A DNA stretch of 64,000 nucleotides from Terriglobia bacterium (GTDB lineage: Bacteria; Acidobacteriota; Terriglobia; JAIQFV01). The notes beneath the pieces are model-generated. The model made no database searches. It was not told the origin of the DNA and saw nothing but the letters and a program-made list of their open reading frames with translations. Position 1 is the stretch's first letter. Each line of letters begins with the position of its first letter. This document shows, in pieces, positions 41,930 through 47,500 of the stretch. The stretch covers positions 1 to 64,000 of the forward strand of contig JAIQFY010000004.1 of the NCBI GenBank assembly GCA_020072965.1, given 5' to 3'. Both the position numbers and the translations under genes were made by a program.

Positions 41930-42211
41930 TTAATTGATCGTGGTCAGGCCCTGATGAATCCATAAGGCCGCCACCACCAGCAGCAGGATGGCGCTGACGA
42001 TGCCAATCCATTTCACGTACGGGCCGACGGCATCCATCTGATGCGCAATGTGCTGTTGCTCGTGCAGGAGCGCTTCCTCGCCGCGATGCAAGAAAACCTG
42101 ATCTTCTTCTTTCCTCGCCAGAAGGGCGCGATAAATCAGCAGCATGACCCACAGGAAAGTAATCACGGCCCAACCTGAAAACAATGGCACAAGCAGAGAA
42201 TCAATTTTCAT
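41930..42211 (-). CDS. Small two-helix membrane protein, paralogue 3
   Basis: The 93-residue protein has two transmembrane helices (LLVPLFSGWAVITFLWVMLLIY and WIGIVSAILLLVVAALW) flanking a cytoplasmic or periplasmic loop with REEDQVFLH-like sequence (KEEDQVFLHRGEEALLHEQQ). It is clearly related to the proteins at 42572 and 43459, though more distantly than they are to each other. GGAGGTCAT precedes ATG 42211. I do not recognise the family. It is nearest to mutY. Confidence 0.7.
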   Translation of the reverse strand: MKIDSLLVPLFSGWAVITFLWVMLLIYRALLARKEEDQVFLHRGEEALLHEQQHIAHQMDAVGPYVKWIGIVSAILLLVVAALWIHQGLTTIN

Positions 42212-42571
42212 ATGACCTCCTGACTGGAACAGCATTTACAGGAGGGTCCTCTTTAGGATCCTGATGATATTTTAGCGCGATTGTGTTTGGAAAACAAAAG
42301 AGGGGAGTTCACTGCGGCAGATGCGATCGATCAGAAGGGAAAAACACAAGGGAGACTGAGGACGAGATCCTCCGTGACCCCCACTCACACCCGACAAGGA
42401 AGTGAGCAATACTCTTGCCGAAAGGATACGGAACAGCGGTCATGCTATGCAGCGGGCCGGACACACTTCCCGGCTTAAGTGGGTGAGATTCAACAAAGAA
42501 AAATCCCTCCATCCTGGGCCTTTGCACACAAGGGGTTGCATCCGGATGGAATGGCTGCCCTGGCGTAAGGC
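42212..42571. other. Spacer between small membrane-protein paralogues
   Basis: A 360-base gap with no gene or clear structure that I can support, apart from a few short direct and inverted words. Confidence 0.35.
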
Positions 42572-42850
42572 TCACAGACCACTCCACCCCCGATAAAACC
42601 AGAGGATCCCCAATAAAGCCATCAAGGTGAGGCTTAAGGTGCGGGACCAGTGCAAGTAGGGAGAAAGCCGCTCCACCCGTTCCGCAAGTTCCTCCTGGTC
42701 ACGGACGAGATATTCCTCACCGTCGAACAAGAATATCCGGCCTTCCTCGTGCATGCCAAGGACGCCCCGGTAGATTGAAAGGGAGATCCAGATTGCTGCA
42801 ATCAACTCCCAAAGTGAAAAAACCCACAGGAGAAGCGCTGAGCTCTTCAT
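42572..42850 (-). CDS. Small two-helix membrane protein, paralogue 2
   Basis: The 92-residue protein starts MKSSALLLWVFSLWELIAAI, has helix 1 to about residue 30, a loop YRGVLGMHEEGRIFLFDGEEYLV, a heptad-like helix (RDQEELAERVERLSPYL) and helix 2 ending FYRGWSGL. It is about half identical to paralogue 1 at 43459 and shares its upstream sequence. The EED motif is changed to EEG here. Function unknown. Confidence 0.75.
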   Translation of the reverse strand: MKSSALLLWVFSLWELIAAIWISLSIYRGVLGMHEEGRIFLFDGEEYLVRDQEELAERVERLSPYLHWSRTLSLTLMALLGILWFYRGWSGL

Positions 42851-43458: not shown

Positions 43459-43737
43459 TTACATGGCATTCCATCCCCGATAGAACCAGAGGACGCCGAA
43501 CAAGATCAGCAGCGCAGCGCTAAGGATCCCCGACCAGAGAAGGTAAGGGGATACCCGTTTCAATTTTTCCGCAACTTCCTTTTGCGCACGGACAAGTGAT
43601 TCTTCGCCCTTGTGTAAAAAAACCTGATCTTCCTCACGCATACCAATGACGCCGCGATAGATCATCAAGGCGATCCAGAATGCCGTGACCCCTGCCCAAG
43701 CGGAGAATACTCCAATGAGAAGTGCACTGCTCTTCAT
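43459..43737 (-). CDS. Small two-helix membrane protein, paralogue 1
   Basis: The 92-residue protein (MKSSALLIGVFSAWAGVTAFWIALMIYRG) has two helices and the loop MREEDQVFLHKGEESLVRAQKEVAEKLKRVSPYL. It is the closest match to paralogue 2 and shares the EEDQVFLHxGEE motif with paralogue 3. AGGAGGTT lies just ahead of ATG 43737. I do not recognise the family; the conserved charged loop between two helices suggests a partner-binding or ion-coupled role, which is only a guess. Confidence 0.75.
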   Translation of the reverse strand: MKSSALLIGVFSAWAGVTAFWIALMIYRGVIGMREEDQVFLHKGEESLVRAQKEVAEKLKRVSPYLLWSGILSAALLILFGVLWFYRGWNAM

Positions 43738-46047: not shown

Positions 46048-46221
46048 GGGGAAGCTCTCCGGCGAGGGGACACAAGCTCTGCACGCTCCCGGAATATGCC
46101 GCCCCTGCTTTTATTCAAGGTCCCTTTCCGCGTTGTCCGCGTTCGTCCGAGTCCATCGAATGGGTGGAGCACACATCGAAAAGCATCGGGTTCGCCACCC
46201 TGATTTCAGAAGGGATGTGCC

Positions 46222-46869
46222 GTGGCTGACAGAATCCCTGTGATTGTTTTTTCAGATTATCTCTGACCGTGGTGCTTCAACGCCGCGGTGCGGCTGCGAA
46301 TAATCCAGAGAGAGTTTCAGGACTCCGTTGAGATGATCGAGAAGTTCTTCCCGTTGCGGCGAGGTGTGGAAAACCATGCCGAATTCACGGAATACATCAT
46401 TGGGCATCGTCACGCCGCCAGCGAGCAATTGAAGTCCGATGCGGAGGTGTCCGATCCCCCCGCCTTCTCCATTCCTCCGTTGGGGACCCGGTACCCGCGC
46501 TCCTCGATGCCGGCTCTGGAGGCTGCGGCCTTCGTGCAACGGAATTATCCGGATCGATTTGATGCCTTCGACCTGGCTTTATTTCAGGCATTCTTCACGC
46601 GGACCGAGGACATCAGCAACATCGATTTCCTGGTCCGCCTTGCCTTTGATTACAATATCAGCATGGAGACCTTGCGGGAGGCCTTGGAATCAAGGCAATT
46701 TAAAGAAACCGTGATGAAGGATTTTCGAGTTGCGTCGGAGGAGTTTGGGGTGACCGGAATCCCCACCGTCATTCTCCCGGACCAGTTCCCCATCGTCGGC
46801 GCTGTTCCGACGAGCCAGTATCGGGAAGCGGTTCAGCGCGCAATTCGCGGACGGCCAAACAGACGCTGA
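46222..46869 (+). CDS. DsbA/FrnE-family thiol oxidoreductase with in-frame TGA at the active-site Cys: probable selenoprotein
   Basis: Read through TGA 46264-46266, the frame gives a 215-residue protein beginning VADRIPVIVFSDYL-Sec-PWCFNAAVRLR. That is the FrnE/DsbA motif SDYxCPWCF with the first Cys replaced by UGA; the second Cys (46273-46275) is intact. The remaining 193 residues are typical: a helical insertion, FDAFDLALFQAFFTRTEDI, and the cis-Pro loop VTGIPTVIL. The only possible start in frame downstream of a stop at 46201 is GTG 46222 with AAGGGA ahead. A hairpin with loop GGU lies at 46282-46294. Standard gene calling would start at GTG 46288 and lose the active site. UGA as an ordinary stop in a decayed gene is the alternative. 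Confidence 0.8.
46271..46305 (+). promoter_or_regulatory. Putative bacterial SECIS hairpin
   Basis: GCCGC (46282-46286) and GCGGC (46290-46294) pair around the loop GGT. Outside a 3x3 internal loop, TTC (46276-46278) pairs with GAA (46298-46300), and GGT/ATC pair further out with one G-U. The loop G-U lies 21-23 bases after the UGA, about where the loop of E. coli fdhF-type elements falls. It is inside the reading frame, as bacterial SECIS elements are. Confidence 0.5.
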
Positions 46870-47314: not shown

Positions 47315-47500
47315 TCACTCTTCCGAGGCCATTTCTGAAATCTCCACATGGAGGCGATGCTCCGTGTCCATGGCCTCGATTTCACGCTGGCGCGCTTCGG
47401 CTTCCTCCCGGGTCTTAAACCGCTCGGTGCGCGTCGCAATTCCGAGGTTCTTGCTGATCTTTGGATAGACGTTCAATTCGTAACGATCGATCTCAGTCAT
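47315..47500 (-). CDS. Small hypothetical protein
   Basis: The 61-residue ORF (MTEIDRYELNVYPKISKNLG...) is charged and has amphipathic character, ending with an acidic helix (REEAEARQREIEAMDTEHRLHVEISEMASEE). ATG 47500 has no strong SD. I do not recognise a family. Composition is protein-like, unlike the surrounding shadow frames, so I list it with moderate confidence. Confidence 0.4.
   Translation of the reverse strand: MTEIDRYELNVYPKISKNLGIATRTERFKTREEAEARQREIEAMDTEHRLHVEISEMASEE

Follow-up and report, generated by a model that had tools for sequence, protein, structure and literature searches.

The window, meaning the whole stretch of 64,000 nucleotides that was analysed, lies on contig C68 of a genome of 5.9 Mb that is 100% complete. 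Its plus strand contains a reading frame for a DsbA/FrnE-like oxidoreductase in which the only internal stop codon is a TGA at codon 15, and the frame ends at a TGA of its own (46867-46869). With the internal TGA read as selenocysteine (Sec), the predicted protein begins VADRIPVIVFSDYL-U-PWCFNAAVRLR, and Sec15 and Cys18 form its only redox pair. The features of the locus are collected in Table 1.

Table 1. Features of the candidate selenoprotein gene
Feature	Position	Strand	Description and basis
Shine-Dalgarno-like AAGGG	46210..46214	+	7 bases 5' of GTG 46222; sequence reading
Complete coding sequence	46222..46869	+	DsbA/FrnE-like, 215 residues; starts at GTG, has TGA as codon 15 (read as Sec) and stops at TGA
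UGA read as Sec15, first position of UxxC	46264..46266	+	Aligned with the invariant Cys of Cys homologues
Cys18, presumed resolving Cys of U-P-W-C	46273..46275	+	Sole cysteine codon of the frame
Bacterial SECIS-like stem-loop within the coding sequence	46281..46298	+	GCCGC (46282-46286), GGU (46287-46289), GCGGC (46290-46294); comparison and published criteria
Ordinary table-11 ORF	46288..46869	+	193 aa from GTG 46288; product of a standard gene caller, without the active site
Pro181 in GVTGIPT, presumed cis-Pro facing the active site	46762..46764	+	Invariant in the alignment; cis form expected from the family

The reading frame and its conservation

The first-pass annotation proposed that an in-frame TGA replaces the active-site Cys of an SDYLCPWC motif, and this is borne out: the frame beyond the TGA is open as far as its own stop, and the following Cys is intact as Cys18 of U-P-W-C. 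Two details are corrected. The motif S-D-Y-L-U-P-W-C is present, at codons 11-18 instead of 12-18, and the open frame after the TGA comprises 200 sense codons instead of 193, the latter number being the length of the ordinary ORF. As had been predicted, ordinary annotation begins with that ORF, past the active site. The protein read through the TGA matches the Pfam family DSBA (PF01323) with 70.1 bits against a cut-off of 25.6, its residues 7-205 covering profile positions 2-191 of 191, whereas the shortened ORF obtains only 40.4 bits and covers only positions 100-191. The gene almost certainly encodes a full-length Sec-containing redox enzyme that is mis-annotated, so that what annotation would shorten is likely to be a complete selenoenzyme.

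The gene is also found, with 94% protein identity and the same TGA, in the genome of another species of the genus (G001). DNA identity between the two genomes is 0.91-0.93 in blocks from 46222 onward and about 0.65 immediately upstream. Because the conserved block starts exactly at codon 1, the codons 5' of the TGA are presumably translated. The genes differ at 67 bases, distributed 15/8/44 over codon positions 1/2/3, and include synonymous changes 5' of the TGA in codons 6, 9 and 14; within codons 15-26, the region of the stem-loop, one base differs. The start codon is GTG in the window and ATG in G001, and a purine-rich, ribosome-binding-like stretch precedes both, with GAGAGG in G001 at the same place as AAGGG in the window. 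The comparison was also searched for a conserved operon partner; the region upstream shows no clear conservation, and the search yielded no functional partner.

Selenocysteine machinery and genetic code

The selenoprotein interpretation is supported by the machinery encoded elsewhere in the genome, for which the first-pass annotation had advised a search. The set is complete: a tRNA-Sec with anticodon UCA (69.8 bits), SelA (456.6 bits), SelB (381.7 bits) and SelD (376.7 bits), all above cut-offs. The selD gene (G000:C68:64978-65904) lies about 1 kb past the right end of the window and contains a single internal TGA, in the context KAAG-U-AAKIGPKD; because this TGA is in frame, the SelD of this genome appears to be a selenoprotein as well. 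TGA is not reassigned in the genome, since seven of the eight clear neighbouring genes use it as their stop, and reassignment was rejected on this ground. A scan across the window for other redox-motif frames with a TGA revealed no further credible selenoprotein. Among 30 tested genomes that carry Sec forms of the gene, SelA is found in 29, and the lone miss is a genome that is 81% complete.

Homologues and exchange of Sec and Cys

The closest homologues (L023-L030) come mainly from Myxococcota and from other metagenome-assembled genomes. They have the motif SDYLCPWCFNA and 28-34% overall identity to the window protein, which lies on a long branch of the tree. Relatives have either Cys or TGA at the Sec column, as the Sec reading had led one to expect. 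Across the nine aligned sequences, which include eight Cys homologues, the residues S11, D12, Y13, L14, P16, W17, C18, F19 and N20 are invariant, and position 15 is Cys in place of Sec in all eight. The nearest homologues are mostly Cys forms; in a sample of 284 Myxococcota-group genomes around L023, four members of the subfamily have a TGA as this codon (L091, L099, L107 and L117). TGA-bearing homologues were checked individually before being counted. Two were left out of the Sec set: L118 (genome G608), in which the TGA is an ordinary terminal stop and the active site has Cys, and L119 (G571), which is a Cys form.

More remote members from the class and phylum of the window carry TGA in the contexts FTDFVUPWC, SDYVUPFC, SDYVUPYC and HDYVUPWC. 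Several further DsbA/FrnE-like Sec clades, with UPWC, UPFC or UPYC active sites, occur both within this phylum and among the Myxococcota group, and many of their members have a strong hairpin after the UGA (members L034-L043, L051-L056, L059, L063-L066, L120 and L122-L124).

A tree calculated by a quick method with the Sec column left out, and containing several long branches, needs seven changes between Sec and Cys, at least five of which are forced by well-supported branches. The Cys homologues L023-L030 and L087-L116 belong to the same subfamily by both tree and motif. In the sample from the Myxococcota group, SelA is present in 42 of the 46 genomes that carry the subfamily (E at or below about 5e-14) versus 134 of the 238 others, a difference with a Fisher p of 2e-6 that ignores relatedness. 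The Cys form of the subfamily is also mostly found in SelA-bearing genomes. For this reason, the SDYL(U/C)PWCFNA subfamily might be connected with selenium metabolism as such, for instance as a redox partner of selenoproteins or in selenium handling, though we consider this unlikely. Either such a role exists, or the Cys forms arose from Sec forms and persisted in lineages that use Sec; shared ancestry of the genomes could also explain the association.

A SECIS-like stem-loop after the UGA

The hairpin GCCGC-GGU-GCGGC that had been noticed after the UGA is present, and it spans bases 16-28 past the UGA, one base less than the 15-28 first given. An alternative pairing adds an outer clamp of CGC (46281-46283) with GCG (46296-46298). 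The structure agrees on all four points with the published model of bacterial SECIS elements (PMC13188914, Fig. 2A). The model calls for a loop of 3-9 nt on an upper stem of 4-16 bp, and the hairpin has a loop of 3 nt on a stem of 5 bp. One of the first two loop positions is expected to be a G, mostly with G or U after it, and the loop reads GGU. The distance from UGA to apical loop, expected at 16-37 nt, is 20 nt, the UGA ending at 46266 and the loop starting at 46287. The energy, expected at or below -7.5 kcal/mol, is -8.5 for the constrained hairpin and -10.5 for the fold of 46270-46307.

Against codon-preserving shuffles, the hairpin of the window alone is not significant (p about 0.15), and when 46264-46312 is folded without constraint, the energy minimum is another hairpin, which starts at the UGA; stand-alone significance was rejected for these reasons. 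The case for a SECIS element therefore rests on relatives, and comparison with the Cys forms and with the SelD of the same genome supports it. The selD gene has a strong hairpin, GGUCCAAA-GGA-UUUGGACC, whose GGA loop is at +23 to +25 from the U of its UGA, and the GGU loop of the window gene is in the same register. Relative to codon shuffles, the energy of the constrained hairpin is lower in the Sec forms of the subfamily than in its Cys forms (Mann-Whitney p 0.003); over all sequences the same comparison gives p 3e-9, which is not exact for related sequences. Lower clamp and upper stem both pair in six of six Sec forms versus none of 34 Cys forms of the subfamily (Fisher p 2.6e-7), in a test for which the structure was defined after inspection, two registers were allowed and the sequences are related.

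One codon of the stem specifies Ala in all six Sec forms, and Ser or another residue in most Cys forms. Because this Ala codon belongs to the stem, the RNA signal may have an influence on the protein sequence here. No Rfam family was matched in the window. The subfamily, with its repeated exchanges of Sec and Cys and an RNA signal that appears to come and go with Sec, is a natural set in which Sec gain and loss can be followed.

Alternative readings of the TGA

The gene might instead be a pseudogene or a truncated gene, whose TGA is a real stop and whose downstream part is either translated from GTG 46288 or unexpressed. The existence of the 193-aa ORF is consistent with this, but its product would be missing the first strand as well as the entire active site. 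Moreover, G001 retains the TGA, the codons before it, the start and the ribosome-binding-like element, with third-position-biased changes throughout, and in many relatives the Sec column itself again holds a stop codon, which is always TGA. A pseudogene or truncated gene is very improbable in the face of these observations. A miscalled TGC or TGT was another concern of the first-pass annotation. No point in favour of a sequencing or assembly error was found, and such an error is practically excluded by the identical TGA in an independent genome, where it stands amid the 67 other base differences, and by the joint occurrence of stem-loop and TGA in relatives.

A different possibility is that the TGA is decoded as Cys or Trp, through near-cognate readthrough, a reassigned code or a variant tRNA. 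Insertion of Cys would also yield a working enzyme, the column being Cys in homologues. However, TGA is the usual stop of the neighbouring genes, a canonical tRNA-Sec(UCA) with SelA, SelB and SelD is at hand, the stem-loop tracks the Sec forms, and nearly all genomes with TGA forms have SelA. There is very little chance, in our judgement, that Cys or Trp is the residue inserted. We regard it as very probable that the gene product is a selenoprotein, namely a FrnE/DsbA-like oxidoreductase of thioredoxin fold whose active site is Sec15-Pro-Trp-Cys18, whose location is probably the cytosol and whose UGA is decoded with the help of the stem-loop.

Predicted fold and function

The AlphaFold2 model (pLDDT 86.6, pTM 0.84) has a thioredoxin fold with a helical insertion. 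The closest structures found by Foldseek are 2in3, FrnE of Deinococcus radiodurans, SCO1869 and HCCA-isomerase/kappa-GST-like structures, with a TM score of about 0.75 for 2in3 and FrnE. The thioredoxin fold and inserted helical domain of the model, together with Pro181, which is conserved in the alignment, are the traits of DSBA proteins. Cys18 is the only Cys of the protein, and because a second Cys motif at the C terminus, the trait of FrnE proper, is absent, we call the protein FrnE-like and not FrnE. By inspection, there is also no visible signal peptide of the kind that periplasmic DsbA has, and the N terminus starts directly with the first strand. With no signal-like stretch and no Cys other than Cys18, the protein is probably a cytosolic UxxC oxidoreductase.

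In the proposed mechanism, UGA 46264 would be decoded as Sec by SelB and tRNA-Sec(UCA), the tRNA being charged via SelA and SelD, and the stem-loop about 20 nt downstream would assist. We infer Sec insertion at this codon from the sequence evidence. Sec15 would then act as the nucleophile in thiol/disulfide (or selenenylsulfide) exchange, attacking a disulfide or an oxidised substrate, and Cys18 would resolve the intermediate.

Relation to known selenoproteins and to FrnE

UxxC selenoproteins of the DsbA type have been known since 2005, as the first-pass annotation recognised, and the window gene is a new member of this class. Sargasso Sea sequences contain DsbA-like UxxC selenoproteins under COG2761 (PMC1088965), the Global Ocean Sampling (GOS) survey lists DsbA 1-3 selenoproteins (PMC2398784), and a 2026 review includes a "DsbA-like protein form 1" (PMC13188914). 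By their published descriptions, these proteins (COG2761/PF01323) share with the window protein the Pfam family, the N-terminal Sec of UxxC and a SECIS right after the UGA (PMC1088965, PMC2398784, PMC13188914). Green algae are mentioned as having a FrnE that contains Sec (PMC6627142). The 2026 review (PMC13188914) has no mention of FrnE, "Acidobacteri" or "Myxococc"; FrnE and "Acidobacteri" are also absent from another review, and the literature searched held no selenoprotein paper mentioning both "Myxococc" and SECIS. The new elements here are the number of Sec/Cys switches required by the tree and the frequent company of SelA even for the Cys form.

Both the profile search (8e-18) and the fold comparison (TM 0.74-0.77) give FrnE of D. 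radiodurans (5cnw and related structures) as the group that matches best. It has CPWC at the same place and, like the window protein, an N-terminal strand followed by the active-site helix, but it uses Cys and not Sec and is 260 aa long versus 215. It also has a second, C-terminal Cys motif that the window protein lacks. The top Foldseek match is 2in3 (E 4.8e-11), a putative disulfide isomerase of Nitrosomonas europaea that has 20% identity and is uncharacterised. The Cys homologues of the subfamily itself differ in having Cys at the Sec position and in lacking the conserved stem-loop of the Sec forms.

Other features of the window

Two further segments of the window were noted in the comparison with G001. 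The segment 47500-48002 is about 90% identical in the two genomes and has no ORF longer than 65 aa and no clear codon periodicity of changes; it is possibly a conserved noncoding element situated past the 3' end of hemL, and it has no Rfam match. On the minus strand, 47315-47500 contains an ORF of 61 aa (MTEIDRYELNVYPKISK...), and 12 of its 17 changes relative to G001 are in one phase. This codon-like pattern suggests that it is likely to be a real small gene.

The minus strand also encodes, at 41930-42235, 42572-42850 and 43459-43737, three small proteins that resemble one another and are 92-101 aa long. Each has two hydrophobic stretches around a common IYR...EE...GEE region, and the three are apparently paralogues in a row.
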